A stretch of 64,000 nt of DNA from Cellvibrio mixtus subsp. mixtus J3-8 (GTDB lineage Bacteria; Pseudomonadota; Gammaproteobacteria; Pseudomonadales; Cellvibrionaceae), in assembly GCF_000766945.1 (NCBI RefSeq), contig NZ_KN266208.1, positions 589,275-653,274 on the forward strand, in the 5' to 3' direction. The notes beneath the pieces are model-generated. The model was not told the DNA's origin and searched no databases. It saw only the letters and a list, made by a program, of their open reading frames with translations. This document shows, piece by piece, positions 15,726 through 24,636 of the stretch. The position numbers were made by a program, and so were the translations under genes. How positions within the stretch are numbered: position 1 is the first letter of the stretch; each line of letters starts with the position of its first letter.

Positions 15726-16169
15726 ATGGCGAAAAAATCCCCCTCTACTGAAACCTTTGCGCTGCGTCCTTTTACTCCCTATGTGGAGAAAAAGGGTGAA
15801 GACTACATGAACGATAACCAGAAGCTGCATTTTAGAAATCTGCTGCTGAACTGGCGTTCAGAATTGATGGAAGAAGTAGACCGCACCGTGAGCCACATGA
15901 AAGACGAAGCGGCTAACTTCCCCGACCCAGCTGACCGCGCCAGCCAGGAAGAAGAATTCAGCCTCGAGCTGCGTACCCGCGACCGCGAGCGCAAGTTGAT
16001 CAAGAAAATTGACAGCACCCTTGAGCTGATCGAAAACGACGATTACGGTTATTGCGATGCCTGCGGTGTAGAAATTGGTATTCGCCGCCTGGAAGCCCGC
16101 CCGACTGCAACACTCTGCGTGGATTGCAAAACCCTTGCAGAAATCAAAGAAAAGCAAATCGGCGGTTAA
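15726..16169 (+). CDS. dksA: RNA polymerase-binding transcription factor DksA
   Basis: The 147-residue protein has the coiled-coil tip region NFPDPADRASQEEEFSLELR with the two acidic residues needed for activity, and a zinc finger (CDAC at about 117-120, CVDC at about 138-141). It binds the RNA polymerase secondary channel and acts with ppGpp. The N-terminus beyond YMNDNQKLHF matches the length of other DksA proteins, so ATG 15726 is kept. gluQ follows, as in Enterobacteria and Pseudomonas. Confidence 0.96.
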   Translation: MAKKSPSTETFALRPFTPYVEKKGEDYMNDNQKLHFRNLLLNWRSELMEEVDRTVSHMKDEAANFPDPADRASQEEEFSLELRTRDRERKLIKKIDSTLELIENDDYGYCDACGVEIGIRRLEARPTATLCVDCKTLAEIKEKQIGG

Positions 16170-16183
16170 TACCGTCGATTCCG

Positions 16184-16203
16184 GAGGTGGGCTTTCCCAC
16201 CTC
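16184..16203 (+). other. Small hairpin in the dksA-gluQ gap
   Basis: GAGGTGGG pairs perfectly with CCCACCTC around a CTTT loop. No T run follows. It ends 6 bases before the gluQ ATG and could modulate gluQ translation or weaken readthrough; a transcription-processing role is also possible. Confidence 0.5.
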
Positions 16204-16209
16204 ACTGAT

Positions 16210-17145
16210 ATGCCCGCCGCACCACACTCCCCCGTTACATCAAAAAACAGCCCTTACATTGGCAGATTTGCGCCTTCGCCCTCTGGCCCCTTGCATTTCG
16301 GCTCGCTGGTTACCGCCCTGGCAAGTTACCTCGATGCCAAGGCCCATCGAGGCCAGTGGCTGGTGCGAATGGAAGATCTGGACCCACCACGAGAACAACC
16401 CGGTGCCGCCGATGTAATCCTGCGCAGCCTTGAGGGCCATGGGTTGGAGTGGGATGGCGATGTGATGTATCAGAGTAAGCGCCACGACGCATATCAAGAC
16501 TGCCTGGATGATCTGCTTGCACACGACCGGGTTTACCCATGCGATTGTTCACGCCAGGATCTAAGCGCAATGGGGGGAATTTATAATGGTCGCTGCCGCT
16601 ACAGATCAGTGGATCTATCTCTGCCACACGCCCTGCGCCTTAAGCTTTACGATACCAAGGATTACCCGGGCAGCGATGAGTGTCATTTCCATGACCTGAT
16701 TCAGGGCTTCCAAGCACAAAATTTGCGCACGGACGCAGGTGATCAGATCCTGAGACGGCGCGATGGCTTCTACGCTTATCAACTTGCCGTTGTGGTGGAT
16801 GATATAGCGCAAGGCATCACCCATATCATTCGGGGCAATGATTTACTGGAAGTCACCGCTCGCCAGCTATTTTTCTTCGGATTGCTGGGTGCGCCTTTGC
16901 CCATCTATGGCCATGTCCCTTTGGCCGTGCAGGCAAACGGGCAAAAATTGAGCAAACAAAATCACGCGCGCGCCATTGAGATCAAAGATGCAAGCAGGAA
17001 CCTGTGGCGTGGGCTAGAGTTTTTAGGGCAAAATCCGCCCCCTGATTTGGCGGGTGCTTCAACCAATGAAATTCTGGACTGGGGATTGCATTATTGGCGC
17101 AGGGACAAGATTACAGGCCAAAGTCACCTGTACAGCGATAACTAA
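16210..17145 (+). CDS. gluQ: Glutamyl-queuosine tRNA(Asp) synthetase
   Basis: The 311-residue truncated paralogue of glutamyl-tRNA synthetase lacks the anticodon-binding domain. It has the HIGH-like motif (FAPSPSGPLHFGSL), a KMSKS-like motif (GQKLSKQNHAR) and the zinc site YPCDCSRQ with IYNGRCR, all typical of GluQRS. It charges the queuosine base of tRNA(Asp) with glutamate. ATG 16210 lies 40 bases after dksA. The longer frame overlaps dksA and is not conserved-looking. Confidence 0.93.
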   Translation: MPAAPHSPVTSKNSPYIGRFAPSPSGPLHFGSLVTALASYLDAKAHRGQWLVRMEDLDPPREQPGAADVILRSLEGHGLEWDGDVMYQSKRHDAYQDCLDDLLAHDRVYPCDCSRQDLSAMGGIYNGRCRYRSVDLSLPHALRLKLYDTKDYPGSDECHFHDLIQGFQAQNLRTDAGDQILRRRDGFYAYQLAVVVDDIAQGITHIIRGNDLLEVTARQLFFFGLLGAPLPIYGHVPLAVQANGQKLSKQNHARAIEIKDASRNLWRGLEFLGQNPPPDLAGASTNEILDWGLHYWRRDKITGQSHLYSDN

Positions 17146-17459: not shown

Positions 17460-20426
17460 ATGACTTTTGACCTGAGCCAAGTTGCACTCATCGGAATCGG
17501 TTACCTGCTGCTGTTATTTGGCATCGCCTGGATTACCGAACGCGGCTGGATTCCCGAATCCGTCACCTCCCACCCTATCACCTATATTTTGTCGCTGGGT
17601 ATCTTTGCCAGTGCCTGGGCGTTTTACGGGGTAATCGACCTTGCCTTCCAATATGGCTATGGAGCTCTCGCCTACTACTTGGGAACTGGCGCACTCTTCC
17701 TGTTCGCGCCCGTCGCACTGGCACCACTAGCGGAACTGGCGCGCCGCCATCAAGTGCACTCATTGGCGGATTTGCTGGTATTCCGCTACCACAGCCATAG
17801 TGTTGGCGCACTAACCACACTGTGTATGCTCTGCGGGATTTTGCCACTACTTGCCCTGCAGATTCAGGCAATTGCCGACACCATGCATATCCTGACAGTA
17901 AGCAGTAATCCATCACTACCACTGGAAACCGGCCTGACATTTAAGGACATCATGGCGCTGTGTTATTGCGCCATCCTGGCGTTCTTTACTATTTCATTCG
18001 GCGCCAATCGCGACCAACATCGCGGCCTTATTACCGCGATGGCGTTTGAATCATTGCTAAAAGTGTGTGCACTGTGCGCCGTTGGCCTGGTTGCGGTATA
18101 TGGTGTATTCGATGGCCTTGACGGTTTGGACCAATGGCTGCTGGATCACCCGGAAAACCTGGCACTGCTTCATACCCCGATCCATACCGATTCAGCCCAT
18201 ACACTCTTGCTGGTATTTGTGGCGACAGCAGTCACCATGCCGCACATTTTCCATTTGGGATTGGCGGAAAACCCACTGATGCGCAACTCGCACACCGTCA
18301 CTTGGGCCTTTCCTCTTTTCTTATTATTAATGGCATTGCCCATTTTCCCGATTCTCTGGGCCGGTACAGAACTCTCCGTTCCCTTGCCACCCCAGTATTA
18401 TTCACTCGGCGTTCCCATTTTGTTTGGCTCGCCCGGCCTCACCTTACTGGCATTCCTGGGCGGTTTATCGGCGGCCACCGGCGCCATGGTCATCATCTCC
18501 CTGGCCCTGGCCACTATGGTGATGAACCACTGGCTGCTACCCAGCCTCAAGCTGCGCACCCGCTCGGATCTCTATAGCCAGTTGATCTGGTTGCGGCGCG
18601 TATTGATCGGAGCGATTTTTGCCGGTGGCTATGTATTCTATTGGGTGCTGGACAACCGTTTCAGCCTCGCACACCTGGCGATGACAGCATTTATCGAAAC
18701 ACTGCAATTCCTGCCAGCCACCTTTGCCATTGTATTTTGGAGCAAGGGCAACAAACGCGGCCTGATTGCCGGCTTGTCGGTAGGTACCACTATTTGGGGA
18801 TTGGGTTTACTACTGCCGATCCTGACCGGCATCGAATACATTCATCTACCGCTCGGCAACCTGAATATTCCGGTAGGGATTGAATATTGGAACCATGTAA
18901 CGCTGATTTCGCTGGGCCTTAACACCTTTTTCTTCGTAGTTATTTCCCTGCTTACCCGCCAATCGGATGACGAGCAATACAGCGCCGAAGTCTGCGCCGC
19001 CGATGAGCTAAGCCACCCCGTCCGCCAGGCGCTGGATGTTCACTCCGCCTCCGAATTCAAACATCGCCTTGCCAAGCCTTTGGGTAAGGTCACCGCCAGC
19101 CGCGAGGTGGATATTGCCCTGCAAGAGCTCAATCTCACCATTGATGAGCGCCGGCCTTATGCATTACGCCGCTTGCGCGACCAGATCGAAGGAAACCTCT
19201 CCAGCTTGATGGGTATCCATGTGGCGAGCGAAATCATGGATAAATATATTCCCCATGTGACAGCAGAAACCCAAAGTACGGTAGATATCAACCTGATTGA
19301 AAACAGGCTGGCCCAATACCGGGACCACCTGACCGGTATGGCGGCAGAACTGAACACCCTGCGCCTCTACCATCGCAAAACCCTGGAAGAATTGCCCATG
19401 GCAGTTTGTTCATTAGGGCGCGATATGGAAGTGCTGATGTGGAACCGGGCGATGGCCAACCTGACCCGGATTCCGACCGAAGATGTGACCGGTTCTTACC
19501 TGGAAGACATACCTGAACCCTGGTGCAGCCTGCTAATAGACTTCAGCCAGAGCAAAGAGCCCCATTTTTATCGCCGCGAGATCGAACTGAATAATCGCCC
19601 ACATTGGATAAGCCTGCACAAAGCCAACATTGAGGGCCCTATTACTGCGGGAGTGTACGATCAGGTGATGTTGCTGGAAGATGTTACCGAAACCCAATTG
19701 CTGGAGCAGGAACTGGTACATTCAGAGCGCCTCGCCTCAGTAGGCCGGCTAGCTGCGGGGGTTGCCCATGAAATTGGCAACCCTATCACCGGTATCGCTT
19801 GCCTGGCGCAAAACCTTAAATATGACTCCAGTGACCCCAAAGAAGTACTGGAAACCGCCGAGCAAATCCTCAGCCAAACCGACCGTGTGGGCCGTATTGT
19901 GCAATCGCTGGTGAGCTTCTCCCACGCCGGCCATGCCAGTAAGACCGAGTTTGAAGCTGTTTCCATTCGTGACTGTGCCAACGAGGCAATTCATTTGCTA
20001 TCGCTGCAAAAAGAGAAAAATCAGGTCCTTTTCTGCAATGATATTCCCAAAACCGCCATCATCGCTGGCGACGCGCAACGCATTATTCAGGTTTTTATAA
20101 ATCTTTTATCTAACGCGCGGGATGCCAGCCCGGAGCAAGGGCGTGTTATGCTTGAAAGTAACGAAGATGAGGATTCGGTAACAGTTTCTGTTACCGATGA
20201 GGGGCATGGTATCCCTCCCGAGCTGATCGAGCGGATTCTTGAACCTTTCTTCACCACCAAAGAACCGGGTGAAGGTACGGGTTTAGGTTTGGCCATGGTC
20301 TACAGCATCATTGAAGACCACAGTGGCCATATGGACATCATTAGTCCCGCCGATCCGGTTCACAATCGCGGCGCAAAATTCGTAATAACATTGCCGCGTC
20401 ACCTTGATGTTTTCATGGACGCCTAG
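17460..20426 (+). CDS. cbrA: Sensor histidine kinase CbrA with SLC5-type transporter domain
   Basis: The 988-residue protein begins with about 12-13 membrane segments of the sodium:solute symporter type (about 1-500). A cytoplasmic linker, a PAS region (about 640-745, including [20 protein letters not shown]), a HisKA domain with phospho-acceptor His770 (GVAHEIGNP) and a HATPase domain ([24 protein letters not shown]) follow. This is the CbrA architecture of Pseudomonas, where it governs carbon/nitrogen balance; histidine transport has been reported there. Position before cbrB and between gluQ and pcnB supports the name. The inducing signal here is unknown. Confidence 0.93.
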
Positions 20427-20503: not shown

Positions 20504-21913
20504 ATGAGCAAGATTCTGATTGTTGAAGACGAGACCATCATCCGCAACGCCCTGCGCAAGCTGCTGGAGCGTAACCAGTACGAGGTCAGTGAGGCCCCGT
20601 CGGTCAAAGAGGCTACTTCAAAATTCCAGTTGAAGGATTTTGACTTGATCGTCAGTGATCTACGGCTACCGGGCGCACCGGGTACAGATTTGATCAAGCT
20701 CGCGGGCGATACGCCGGTACTTATTATGACCAGCTATGCGAGCTTGCGCTCGGCGGTAGACTCTATGCGCATGGGCGCGGTGGACTATATTGCCAAACCT
20801 TTCGATCACGACGAAATGGTCAACGCCGTCAAACGCGTTATTGGCAAAGCCAAGGCTGCCAATAAGGCAGCTCCATCAAGCCAGGCGGCCAGCAGCGCAA
20901 TTGCAGGCATGATTGGCGCCAGCGATGTCATGCAGGATCTATATAACCGCATCCACAAAGTAGCTCCAACCAATGCCACCGTATTGATTCATGGTGAAAC
21001 CGGCACAGGTAAGGAATTGGTGGCCCGCGCCCTCCATGAAGAAAGCAATCGCAACAATCACCTGATGATCTCGGTTAACTGCGCGGCAATTCCCGACACA
21101 TTGATTGAGTCCGAATTGTTCGGGTACGAAAAAGGCGCATTCACCGGTGCCGCTAACAATCGCGAAGGATTGGTTGCTGCCGCTGACGGTGGCACCTTAT
21201 TCCTGGATGAAATCGGTGAATTACCACTTGAAGCGCAAGCGCGCCTGTTGCGTGTACTGCAGGAAGGCGAAGTTCGCCCCCTGGGTTCCGTAGAGTCGCG
21301 CAAAGTCGATGTACGCCTTGTCGCCGCAACCCACCGCGACCTGCGCAAGCTCTCCAAAGAGGGGAAATTTCGCGAAGACTTATATTTCCGTATTAACGTA
21401 GTCCAACTGGAGCTACCGCCACTGCGTGAGCGTGGCCGCGATATCATCAATATCGCTGAATCCCTATTACAGCGTTACTGTGGTCAATTTGGCAAACCGC
21501 AGCTCAAACTGTCATCGGCTGCGATGGATGCCATCATGAGTTATAACTGGCCCGGAAACGTACGCGAGCTGGAAAATGCCATGCAGCGTGCGGTCATCTT
21601 GTGCGAAGACAGCACCGAGATTGGCGATCACCTGCTCTCAATTGACATGGATGCGCGCGACCTGGATGACAACACCGGTACTTCACTGATCGAAGCACCA
21701 CGCCTTGCCGGACGGAGCAGCCGCCAGGAAGCCACGGAGGATTTATCACTGGAAGACTACTTCCAGCGTTTTGTGCTCGAACATCAGGACACCATGAGTG
21801 AAACTGAACTGGCCCGTAAGCTTGGCGTGAGCCGCAAATGCTTGTGGGAGCGCCGTCAACGGCTTGGCATTCCTCGCACCAAAGTTTCTGCAGCTGCCTC
21901 CGCCGCCAAATAA
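20504..21913 (+). CDS. cbrB: Sigma-54-dependent response regulator CbrB
   Basis: The 469-residue NtrC-type activator has a receiver domain with phospho-acceptor Asp52 and an AAA+ domain with Walker A GETGTGKE. The sigma-54 contact loop GAFTGA and Walker B GGTLFLDEIGEL are present. A Fis-type C-terminal helix-turn-helix reads ETELARKLGVSRKCLWERRQ. ATG 20504 gives the family start MSKILIVEDET. It is 77 bases after cbrA. The likely main target is the adjacent downstream small RNA locus, which has a sigma-54 promoter. Confidence 0.95.
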   Translation: MSKILIVEDETIIRNALRKLLERNQYEVSEAPSVKEATSKFQLKDFDLIVSDLRLPGAPGTDLIKLAGDTPVLIMTSYASLRSAVDSMRMGAVDYIAKPFDHDEMVNAVKRVIGKAKAANKAAPSSQAASSAIAGMIGASDVMQDLYNRIHKVAPTNATVLIHGETGTGKELVARALHEESNRNNHLMISVNCAAIPDTLIESELFGYEKGAFTGAANNREGLVAAADGGTLFLDEIGELPLEAQARLLRVLQEGEVRPLGSVESRKVDVRLVAATHRDLRKLSKEGKFREDLYFRINVVQLELPPLRERGRDIINIAESLLQRYCGQFGKPQLKLSSAAMDAIMSYNWPGNVRELENAMQRAVILCEDSTEIGDHLLSIDMDARDLDDNTGTSLIEAPRLAGRSSRQEATEDLSLEDYFQRFVLEHQDTMSETELARKLGVSRKCLWERRQRLGIPRTKVSAAASAAK

Positions 21914-21936: not shown

Positions 21937-21973
21937 AAAAATCCCCGCTATGCCTCAAGCAGCGGGGATTTTT
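21937..21973 (+). terminator. cbrB terminator
   Basis: AAAAATCCCCGCT (21937-21949) pairs with AGCGGGGATTTTT (21961-21973) around an 11-base loop. The T run is part of the stem. It separates cbrAB from the downstream small RNA locus. Confidence 0.9.
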
Positions 21974-22013: not shown

Positions 22014-22117
22014 GTTACTTTAACGCCAGACTGTTACCCCGAACCACGAGAGTGTTACCGTAAAAAAACTGTTACTTTCGCTACCCCGCAGTAACAAATT
22101 TGATACCAACCTGTAAC
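22014..22117 (+). promoter_or_regulatory. Cluster of TGTTAC/GTAACA half-sites, probable CbrB upstream activating sequence
   Basis: TGTTAC occurs at 22032-22037, 22053-22058 and 22070-22075, GTTAC at 22014-22018, and the inverted GTAACA at 22091-22096 with GTAAC at 22113-22117. The pair 22070/22091 forms a palindrome with a 15-base spacer. The sites lie about 75-180 bases upstream of a sigma-54 promoter, the usual place for an NtrC-type activator. CbrB is known to bind palindromic UAS sequences at crcZ in Pseudomonas; assignment here is by position and pattern. Confidence 0.7.
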
Positions 22118-22192
22118 CGTTCGAAATAACAAAAAGAAATAAGAGCCTATCAAAAAAAACTAACCAATTGTTTTTATTAGACTTTTAAAAAC

Positions 22193-22208
22193 TGGCACAA
22201 CACCTGCT
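22193..22208 (+). promoter_or_regulatory. Sigma-54 (-24/-12) promoter of the CrcZ-like RNA
   Basis: TGGCAC at 22193-22198, five bases, then CTGCT at 22204-22208 gives the invariant GG-N10-GC spacing of a sigma-54 promoter. Only the first T of the TTGC block is changed. Transcription would start near 22219. Confidence 0.8.
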
Positions 22209-22335
22209 CTATGTCGGCCATAACAAAAACAAACAATAAGAATTAATTAACAAAATCTAATAACAACAACAAATAATAAAAAACGTAAAAACTTAAAAAT
22301 AACAACAATAGACAATAAGAAACTGAAACAAGCGA

Positions 22336-22394
22336 ATAACAACAAGAAATAATAAGAACTGAAAAAAATAGAACATAACAACAAGAAATAATAA
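22336..22394 (+). repeat. 20-base direct repeat inside the CrcZ-like RNA
   Basis: ATAACAACAAGAAATAATAA occurs at 22336-22355 and again at 22375-22394, a 39-base period. Each copy holds overlapping AAYAAYAA-type motifs, suggesting the binding sites were multiplied by duplication. Confidence 0.9.
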
Positions 22395-22586
22395 CAACAG
22401 AATGTATATAACAATAACGAAAACAATAACTTAGATTGACCACGCTAGAAGACAAGAGCAATAAGACAGTAAAATAAAGCGGACTACTGACTAGGCACAG
22501 GATGGGATAGCACGCGAGATCGGATGTTTGCCATGGAGGCAACCCATTGAGATGCCAGAATGCAGCACCTTGGTGCTACCCTCCAG

Positions 22587-22618
22587 CGGGAAAGCGTGAG
22601 CTTTCCCGTTTTGCTTTT
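22587..22618 (+). terminator. Terminator of the CrcZ-like RNA
   Basis: CGGGAAAGC (22587-22595) pairs with GCTTTCCCG (22600-22608) around GTGA, followed by TTTTGCTTTT. Confidence 0.92.
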
Positions 22619-22761: not shown

Positions 22762-24147
22762 ATGCTCAAACGCTTGCTCAACCTCTTCACATCAAAGGAC
22801 TCCGGCAAAATTTCCGGCCAGCGCACCATTGATGGCGCGATTTACATCCCGCGCGACCAACACAATATCTCGCGCAAAAATATCAGTCAGGCAGCGATAA
22901 AAATCATTAAACAATTGGAAGAAGCCGGTTTTGCCGCCTATCTGGTGGGCGGTGGTGTGCGCGACTTATTGCTCGGCAATCACCCCAAAGATTTCGATGT
23001 CGCGACCAACGCCAAACCCGAAGAAGTAAAGCGCCTGTTTCGCAGCGCCCGAATTGTCGGGCGCCGCTTCCAGATCGTTCATGTGCGGATGGGGCGCGAG
23101 GTAATCGAAGTCACAACCTTCCGCGGTCACCATGATGACAGCACCCAGCATGCAGCACGTAGCGAAGATGGCATGCTCTTGCGCGACAACGTTTATGGCA
23201 CTTTGGAAACCGATGCCATGCGTCGCGATTTCACCGTTAACGCTCTCTATTACACGCTGAAAGATTTTTCAGTGATCGATTATTGCAAGGGAATGGAAGA
23301 CCTTAAAAACCGCACTCTGCGCATGATTGGCGACCCTGCTACACGCTACAAGGAAGATCCGGTACGCATACTTCGCGCACTGCGCTTTGCAGCCAAGCTA
23401 GGGTTTACAATCGAGCCTAAAACCGCAAAACCGATTCGCGACCTGGGCAGCTTATTGTTGAATGTGTCAGACGCCCGTTTGTTTGAGGAAGTGCTCAAGT
23501 TGTTTTTGGGGGGGTCGGCCACTGCGACCTTTAATTTATTGCGCGAGTACGATCTACTTTTGCATCTCTTGCCCGGCACAGATACCGCACTCAAAGCGGG
23601 TGATAGCCTCGGTGCAAACCTGATTGAACACTGCATGATTAACACTGATAAACGTATCCGGGCCGATAAAACAGTGACGCCAGCGTTTATCTACGCAGCC
23701 TTGCTCTGGCCAGCGTTACAACAGCAATTCACGCTGTTGTCAGGCCAAATGACTCCGGCCCAGGCTTGGGCGCAAGCAGGCACTAACGTAATTAACCAGC
23801 AGCTCACTCGCACCGCTGTTCCCAAACGCTTCCTGATTCCGATGCGCGAGATTTGGGATTTGCAGCAACGTTTGCCCAATCGCCTCGGCTTGCGCGCTTT
23901 ACGCACACTCGATCACCCCCGTTTTCGCGCCGCCTATGATTTCCTGTTAATGCGCGAAGCTGCCGGGGAATCACTGGATGGTTTAGGCGTATGGTGGACC
24001 AATTACCAAACTGCAAGCGATGAAGACCGCGAGCGCATGGTCAAAGACCTGGCCAAACAAGGCGGCCCCAGGGCTGGCAATAAACCACGTCGCCGCCGTG
24101 GGCCACGCAAGCCCAAGACCGATGCACCTCATAGCGGGAACGAATAA
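22762..24147 (+). CDS. pcnB: Poly(A) polymerase I
   Basis: The 461-residue class II nucleotidyltransferase has the signature LVGGGVRDLLLGNHPKDFDV with the catalytic DxD, followed by RRFQIVHVRMGREVIEVTTF and RRDFTVNALYY (about 70-160). The C-terminus is strongly basic (KPRRRRGPRKPK), as in PcnB, and unlike CCA-adding enzymes there is no HD domain. It adds 3' poly(A) tails that promote RNA decay. folK follows after 3 bases, forming a pcnB-folK pair as in E. coli. Confidence 0.94.
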   Translation: MLKRLLNLFTSKDSGKISGQRTIDGAIYIPRDQHNISRKNISQAAIKIIKQLEEAGFAAYLVGGGVRDLLLGNHPKDFDVATNAKPEEVKRLFRSARIVGRRFQIVHVRMGREVIEVTTFRGHHDDSTQHAARSEDGMLLRDNVYGTLETDAMRRDFTVNALYYTLKDFSVIDYCKGMEDLKNRTLRMIGDPATRYKEDPVRILRALRFAAKLGFTIEPKTAKPIRDLGSLLLNVSDARLFEEVLKLFLGGSATATFNLLREYDLLLHLLPGTDTALKAGDSLGANLIEHCMINTDKRIRADKTVTPAFIYAALLWPALQQQFTLLSGQMTPAQAWAQAGTNVINQQLTRTAVPKRFLIPMREIWDLQQRLPNRLGLRALRTLDHPRFRAAYDFLLMREAAGESLDGLGVWWTNYQTASDEDRERMVKDLAKQGGPRAGNKPRRRRGPRKPKTDAPHSGNE

Positions 24148-24150
24148 CTG

Positions 24151-24636
24151 ATGGTGCCGGCCTACATAGGTCTGGGTAGCAATCTGGAAGCCCCCCTCGA
24201 TCAGGTTAAGCGTGCGTTTGATGAGCTGGGTACTCTGCCACATACCCGCTTGATCGCGCGCTCTGCGCTTTACCAGAGTCGTGCGATAGGGCCGGAGCAA
24301 CCGGACTACATCAATGCCGTGGCACGTATCGAAACCGGCCTCACGCCATTGGATTTACTGGACGCGCTGCAAGCATTGGAACACGCCCACAGGCGCGTCC
24401 GCCTGCAGCATTGGGGACCGCGCACACTGGACCTGGACCTCTTACTCTACGGGGACGAAACCATCCAGCATCCGCGCCTCAGTGTTCCCCACCCTTATCT
24501 AACCCGGCGCGCTTTCGTACTCTATCCGCTGGCAGATATCGACCCGAATTTACAACTACCGGATGGCCAATCACTGCAAGCCTTGCTTCACCTTTGCCCG
24601 TTTGAAGGCCTGGTGCGCTTGTCAGGAAGCCATTAG
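24151..24636 (+). CDS. folK: 6-hydroxymethyl-7,8-dihydropterin pyrophosphokinase
   Basis: The 161-residue protein has the HPPK signatures YIGLGSNLEAPLDQVKRAF at the N-terminus and GPRTLDLDLLLYGDE (about 90-105), with the Asp pair that binds magnesium. It makes the pterin pyrophosphate used by dihydropteroate synthase in folate synthesis. It is tightly packed behind pcnB and ahead of a deoxynucleoside kinase gene. Confidence 0.95.
   Translation: MVPAYIGLGSNLEAPLDQVKRAFDELGTLPHTRLIARSALYQSRAIGPEQPDYINAVARIETGLTPLDLLDALQALEHAHRRVRLQHWGPRTLDLDLLLYGDETIQHPRLSVPHPYLTRRAFVLYPLADIDPNLQLPDGQSLQALLHLCPFEGLVRLSGSH

Follow-up and report, generated by a model that had tools for sequence, protein, structure and literature searches.

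A predicted CrcZ-like small RNA with long A-rich tracts between cbrB and pcnB of Cellvibrio mixtus

Does the gap between cbrB and pcnB of Cellvibrio mixtus subsp. mixtus J3-8 encode a counterpart of the small RNA CrcZ, which occupies the same gap in Pseudomonas and there relieves the priority given to preferred carbon sources? CbrAB is described as exclusive to the Pseudomonadaceae (Pseudomonas, Azotobacter) in the available portions of two articles (PMC8871633, PMC6296734). No report of a CrcZ/CbrB-type system in Cellvibrio or Microbulbifer, nor of a CrcZ homolog in Marinobacter, was found in the open-access literature searched, and where CbrA and Cellvibrio occurred together in the accessible text of that literature, Cellvibrio appeared solely as a tree outgroup. 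We analysed a stretch of 64,000 nucleotides of this genome (the window), and its sequence makes it highly probable that a small RNA orthologous to Pseudomonas CrcZ (Rfam RF01675) is encoded here, or failing orthology one that matches it in position and function. Features of the locus were as follows.

16075–17145: Glu-tRNA-synthetase-like gene
17460–20426, + strand: cbrA, sensor kinase of 988 aa with HisKA and HATPase_c domains and a match to the solved protein 10ed
about 20504–21913, + strand: cbrB, sigma-54-dependent response regulator with Response_reg and Sigma54_activat domains
21942–21968, no strand assigned: terminator-like hairpin 3′ of cbrB, with A/T runs flanking both sides
22032–22058, + strand: two extra TGTTAC copies (22032 and 22053), 5′ of the core array
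22070–22118, + strand: CbrB-type array, F1 TGTTAC at 22070, R1 GTAACA at 22091 and R2 GTAACC at 22113
22193–22208, + strand: sigma-54 promoter TGGCACAACACCTGCT (GG-N10-GC; TGGCAC-N5-CTGCT), 80 bp from R2
22219–22616, + strand: predicted CrcZ-like RNA of ~398 nt from promoter to terminator, both ends predicted, A content 0.48
22222–22429, + strand: six A-rich Hfq-type tracts of 20–27 nt each
22500–22584, + strand: 3′ domain with a long-range stem, GGATGGGATAGCA (22500–22512) pairing with TGCTACCCTCC (22574–22584)
22528–22542, + strand: CsrA/RsmA-type hairpin with ANGGA in the apical loop, TTGCC-ATGGA-GGCAA
22585–22610, + strand: intrinsic terminator hairpin with T tail
22762–24147, + strand: pcnB, flanking gene outside the RNA (TIGR01942, E 2.9e-165)
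24151–24636: folK-like gene
25362 onward: panB-like gene, assigned by eye

The gene order in the window was thus Glu-tRNA-synthetase-like gene, cbrA, cbrB, gap, pcnB, folK-like gene and panB-like gene; the initial annotation had placed the gap between cbrB and pcnB, and domain and profile matches of the flanking genes confirmed this location, which is that of CrcZ. Residues 1–601 of CbrA resembled 10ed (entry name “histidine kinase”) with an E-value of 2.6e-168. Proteins of the CbrA family presumably carry a transporter half in their N-terminal ~600 residues; Pfam reported no transporter domain in the window CbrA. CbrB shared 64–68% identity with its Pseudomonas counterpart over the best segment and 98% with that of a genus-mate (G013), and a by-eye comparison found its DNA-binding end almost the same as in Pseudomonas. 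Among relatives, a CbrB match of some kind (other NtrC-like regulators included) was obtained in 57 of 57, and pcnB was seen in 40 of 50 downstream stretches. Within the family, pcnB lay downstream in 27 of 32 loci within the fetched stretch; the five others comprised two at contig ends (L008, L017) and three in which ~1.5 kb was examined (L016, L026, L032).

The same annotation had reported clustered TGTTAC/GTAACA sites and a GG-N10-GC sigma-54 promoter, and both were found in place (22032, 22053, 22070 and 22091, with GTAACC at 22113; promoter at 22193–22208). The published arrangement, according to the available text, is one forward and two reverse CbrB subsites 20–25 bp apart (PMC6296734), and the window had these subsites together with the sigma-54 promoter, spaced 21 bp (F1–R1), 22 bp (R1–R2) and 80 bp (R2–sigma-54). 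Pseudomonas crcZ gave nearly the same picture: all subsites were present in 60 of 62 loci drawn from the best 80 of 580 relatives, with spacings of 20–23, 20–22 and 80–82 bp, the search having covered set distance ranges and at most one mismatch in F1 and in R1, so that other geometries were invisible to it. The R2–promoter distance was 80–81 bp in 27 of 31 family transcripts, the exceptions being L026 (no triplet), L028 (92 bp), L031 (55 bp) and L032 (56 bp); overall, 46 of 57 transcripts had the forward–reverse–reverse triplet. When a composite F1–R1–sigma-54 pattern was run against the own genome, its single match was at the cbrB–pcnB gap. The pattern matched in 49 of 390 genomes of the order (Pseudomonadales, which we take in the GTDB sense), and the reversed control pattern had no match among the genomes listed. 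An R1–R2–sigma-54 pattern likewise had its single own-genome match at this gap and matched in 35 of 57 relatives; its reversed control, too, had no match among the genomes listed. A simple scan of the gap for sigma-70-type promoters gave none.

The start of the predicted RNA was set by rule, 26 nt beyond the 5′ end of the promoter element. Pseudomonas CrcZ is likewise about 400 nt long and ends in a terminator. A transcript of about 400 nt with at least six A-rich blocks had been expected, and the 398-nt predicted RNA held 10 non-overlapping AAYAAYAA motifs and 12 AANAANAA motifs in six tracts (22222–22242, 22259–22282, 22295–22321, 22335–22358, 22377–22397 and 22410–22429), a tract being AANAANAA matches merged when at most 5 nt apart. 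The stretch is 48% A, as would be expected if the gap were merely AT-rich spacer or upstream DNA that yields no transcript and owes its motifs to base composition. Dinucleotide shuffles, which keep this bias, gave only 0.65 ± 0.73 AAYAAYAA motifs and reached 10 in none of 200; other 398-nt stretches of the window (step 10) had at most one on the + strand and two on the − strand. Motifs and promoter spacing also recur across genera, and the spacer reading is accordingly very improbable. The tracts had a by-product on the other strand, a 99-aa Leu/Phe/Tyr-rich ORF (22243–22542, − strand), which was rejected as coding and taken as the T-rich complement of the A-rich tracts. Within the transcript, three ORFs of at least 20 aa (23, 30 and 28 aa) started on the + strand.

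Several A-rich stretches are a property of CrcZ: the P. aeruginosa RNA has six, and gel shifts with its first 151 nt, which contain three of them, fit one Hfq hexamer per stretch, in the part of PMC4063720 available. The window RNA likewise has six. The initial annotation had judged the motif number higher than in the known RNAs; this held for motifs, with 12 AANAANAA against six in 59 of 62 Pseudomonas loci (best 80 of 580 relatives), but not for blocks, since in the same sample 60 of 62 loci also had six tracts. The larger feature is therefore the length of the tracts, not their number. A tract of at least 16 nt occurred in one of these 62 Pseudomonas loci, the other 61 having tracts shorter than 16 nt, whereas those of the window measure 20–27 nt; they sum to 137 nt, against a median total of 72 nt in the 62 Pseudomonas RNAs (again from the best 80 of 580 relatives). 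An earlier Hfq–Crc complex was formed with an 18-mer (PMC9890229, accessible portion). Set against this 18-mer and the one-hexamer-per-stretch data, the window tracts appear to be about the size of an Hfq hexamer site. With six tracts each, short in Pseudomonas and about hexamer-sized in this Cellvibrio, the two RNAs offer a natural experiment on how tract length affects Hfq–Crc titration.

A terminator had been noted in the gap and was recovered as the hairpin with T tail at 22585–22610; in all, two terminator-like sites were found in the gap against 1.2 expected, and the terminator scan listed part of the 21942–21968 hairpin on the − strand. The terminator bears on another reading of the gap, as a cis-acting part of the pcnB mRNA, either a long 5′ leader or a region for processing. 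The gap does lie on the pcnB strand, but the strong terminator closes the unit ~150 nt 5′ of pcnB and the promoter is of the CbrB/sigma-54 type, leaving little room for a leader, which we consider most unlikely.

Absence of the A-rich tract from close relatives would have spoken against such an RNA. A sigma-54 site followed by at least two AAYAAYAA motifs was instead present in 16 of 16 analysed Cellvibrio genomes (own included) and in 15 of 15 other genomes of the family, and the motif counts in these genomes were reached by 0 of 200 shuffles each. The 16 were drawn from 21 genomes of the window genus, those left out being G002 and G017 (partial cbrB), G010 and G020 (no cbrB-grade match) and G011 (locus L017, whose contig ends inside cbrB). 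The Cellvibrio RNAs had three to seven tracts, six in 9 of 16, and each had at least three tracts of at least 16 nt; the other loci (15 and 13, in overlapping sets) had two to eight, at least one of them of at least 16 nt in each locus. L056, in which no orientation passed, was excluded, as were L037, L039, L040, L041 and L047 from transcript counts, having no sigma-54 pattern match. Three of these, L037 (G044), L041 (G042) and L047 (G051), had zero or one AAYAAYAA 3′ of their cbrB relatives, and G042 had a sub-threshold Rfam CrcZ match on a different contig; loss or relocation of the CrcZ-like unit is possible in these three loci.

Kinship with CrcZ itself was examined with Rfam. The check with the Rfam CrcZ model that the initial annotation had proposed was negative for the window at gathering score: neither the window nor the rest of its own genome reached the RF01675 cut-off of 95 bits, and no other Rfam family matched the window at gathering score. 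As it stands, the window RNA is not filed in RF01675. With laxer filters, applied to 18 genomes of the family (3 Cellvibrio and 15 others), the best match in the own genome had an E-value of 0.197 and lay outside the gap; the stricter search gave nothing in the own genome and nothing in 14 control genomes. As a positive control, RF01675 was recovered in 71 of 390 genomes of the order at E ≤ 0.001, 19 of them above the cut-off. Ten sub-threshold Rfam matches fell in the gap, eight of them on or beside the hairpin 3′ of cbrB; the best, Leu_leader (E 0.0031, 26.9 of 50 bits), was treated as chance.

The model silence in Cellvibrio is what would be seen if a non-orthologous, convergent A-rich RNA occupied the same place, and a second sign agrees with it. 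The UUGGAGAGG core, which 56 of 62 Pseudomonas RNAs (best 80 of 580 relatives) carry unchanged, was not recovered from L131 or from the other Cellvibrio RNAs, in which a composite pattern needed four substitutions to match or failed to match. Against convergence stand the promoter geometry shared with Pseudomonas and intermediates in sister genera. None of seven sister-genus loci matched CrcZ at gathering score, but in 4 of 15 sister-genus genomes the best sub-threshold RF01675 match, at 24.8–48.3 bits, lay in the cbrB–pcnB gap (E 2.5e-11 in G033, 1.2e-8 in G031, 8.7e-5 in G027 and 2.3e-4 in G026). Only the strongest of these syntenic matches count, because at weaker E-values matches also occurred outside the gap (0.0027 in G021, 0.0094 in G034 and a second one in G027 at 0.0087) and, with the E-value limit at 10, 9 of the 14 unrelated control genomes matched too. 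The UUGGAGAGG core was moreover exact in four sister-genus loci (L020, L025, L027 and L029). Because such intermediates match the CrcZ model in the same gap, the window RNA is likely to be a homolog of CrcZ that has drifted strongly, and convergence is improbable.

Protein partners of CrcZ were all encoded in the own genome (Hfq, Crc, CbrA and CbrB). Hfq, found in 53 of 57 relatives, was nearly identical to P. aeruginosa Hfq across its first 72 residues. The annotation had left open whether crc is present; an ortholog was located at L066:1453-2220, with P. aeruginosa Crc as its best solved match (1.6e-74) and E. coli exonuclease III far behind (9.8e-12), and a separate gene (L063) matched exonuclease III at 2e-115. 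The Crc protein also passes xth, the NCBIfam model for exonuclease III, so its name is based on the solved-protein comparison. Of 36 family genomes searched, G010 alone gave no Crc match of at least 63% identity; the other 35 had one.

Synteny, promoter geometry, tracts, terminator, conservation and the Hfq, Crc, CbrA and CbrB genes agree on a CrcZ counterpart, as the initial annotation had suggested, and from these parts a mode of action can be proposed. On a poor carbon source, CbrA would activate CbrB, which would bind the F1–R1–R2 array and drive the sigma-54 promoter, making transcription of the RNA dependent on CbrB and RpoN. The six A-rich tracts, each of roughly the length that the distal face of an Hfq hexamer accommodates, would then capture Hfq and Crc, a titration suggested by the tracts themselves, and the physiological effect would be to lift translational repression of catabolic mRNAs. 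A search of the own genome with AAYAAYAAYAAHAA gave 19 matches against 10 for the reversed pattern; of the 19, L120 alone lay where a long ATG-initiated reading frame begins, and no convincing Hfq/Crc target mRNA emerged from this pattern search. The pattern is also a weak test for a second copy of the RNA, as it matches the RNA itself just once. CbrAB genes, promoter and A-rich RNA were found in Cellvibrio, Gilvimarinus, Microbulbifer and others, which offers a hypothesis for how polysaccharide degraders rank carbon sources.

Cellvibrio differs from Pseudomonas CrcZ also in its 3′ domain, which carries the ANGGA hairpin. The region 22490–22616, terminator included, had a folding z of −3.67. 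Cells of the long-range stem were 95.2% paired in 16 Cellvibrio sequences, and 1 of its 12 pairs had changed on both sides. For the whole 3′ structure, which was derived from the same alignment later used for covariation, double-sided changes affected 3 of 41 pairs, where shuffles gave 1.0 and one slid control 4; further pair types showed no excess in the 16 sequences. Support for the 3′ fold from these alignments is modest.

ANGGA stood in an apical loop in 16 of 16 Cellvibrio RNAs against 0.90 expected (60 shuffles each), and in 8 of 15 sister genera against 0.82. It was also found in 8 of the 14 named loci L131–L146 that had a transcript, four loci of this series belonging to the first locus sets as well; L136 and L141 were excluded for lack of a promoter match, L141 being just 415 nt long. 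All four Microbulbifer loci had the hairpin (GCGCAAGGAAGCCGC). The loop stayed constant while the stem varied (TTGCC/GGCAA, GGGC/GC-ACC, GCGC/GC-CGC). A GNRA tetraloop was ruled out by eye, as the ATGGA, AAGGAC and AGGGAT loops retain ANGGA and not GNRA.

This hairpin raises a further reading, that of an RNA of dual specificity which also binds CsrA/RsmA and so links carbon hierarchy to Csr. It is an addition to the CrcZ explanation, so the confidences in the two overlap, and we put it forward tentatively, as somewhat short of an even chance. The genome has one CsrA gene, and in vitro, according to the available text of PMC6061880, P. aeruginosa CrcZ is bound by RsmN in its 5′ half at UUGGA and by RsmA in its 3′ half at AGGGA, the shifts being abolished when these motifs were mutated. 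Since these proteins bind P. aeruginosa CrcZ and ANGGA is present here, a dual Hfq/Crc and CsrA role is plausible. Several observations weigh against it. ANGGA was near chance in Pseudomonas (4 of 12 against 2.58 expected; the hairpin in 4 of 62 named loci from the best 80 of 580 relatives) and in transcripts of the other families of the order (1 of 14 against 0.93). The 16 Cellvibrio sequences are closely related and do not count as 16 independent events, and 9 of their 16 sites are weak, at −3.1 kcal/mol barely past the threshold of −3.0 kcal/mol. Under a strict definition (contiguous stem of at least 4 bp), the single GGA loop was retained in 5 of 16, namely L001 (the window), L002, L003, L005 and L010. 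When the 3′-terminal 190 nt of L004 were folded, the GG of its site was paired, and 3 of the 8 sister-genus sites (L021, L030 and L031) lay in transcripts in which no terminator was found. RsmY/RsmZ/CsrB-type RNAs resemble the window RNA in bearing GGA in a hairpin loop; unlike them, it has a single ANGGA hairpin and no Rfam match.

The kind of system is known; new here are its occurrence in this lineage, tracts of hexamer length and the hairpin with ANGGA. A broader proposal, in which the Cellvibrionaceae RNA would be a sponge for both Hfq/Crc and CsrA that sets carbon hierarchy and Csr behaviour, with CbrAB–CrcZ descending from an ancestor of much of the Pseudomonadales and not from Pseudomonas, is speculative and in our judgement rather doubtful.

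CrcY and CrcX of P. putida, P. syringae and Azotobacter are, in the accessible part of PMC8871633, likewise CbrB-activated RNAs acting on Crc/Hfq. Unlike those hosts, the own genome has one such promoter by two patterns, whereas a sister-genus genome, G030, has a second CbrB-type promoter (L211, G030:C52:15725-15841) on a contig other than that of cbrB. Six AANAANAA motifs occurred in the 300 nt after it, with a terminator-like hairpin seen by eye, and L211 may be a CrcY-like second copy, a reading made in part by eye. In two further families, L034 (G046) and L046 (G040) each had two sigma-54 sites in the gap downstream of cbrB, with A-rich motifs after each site, although the second set of L034 was weak (11 of 200 shuffles reached its count); a duplicated unit is possible. 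Tandem CbrB-type promoters ~290–420 bp apart were seen in family f47 (L212, G132:C6:9100-10100; also G159, G184 and G267), and in G132 a very short A-rich stretch with a GAGACCTGGATG core lay downstream of each, together with a hairpin, as would fit minimal CrcZ-like RNAs.
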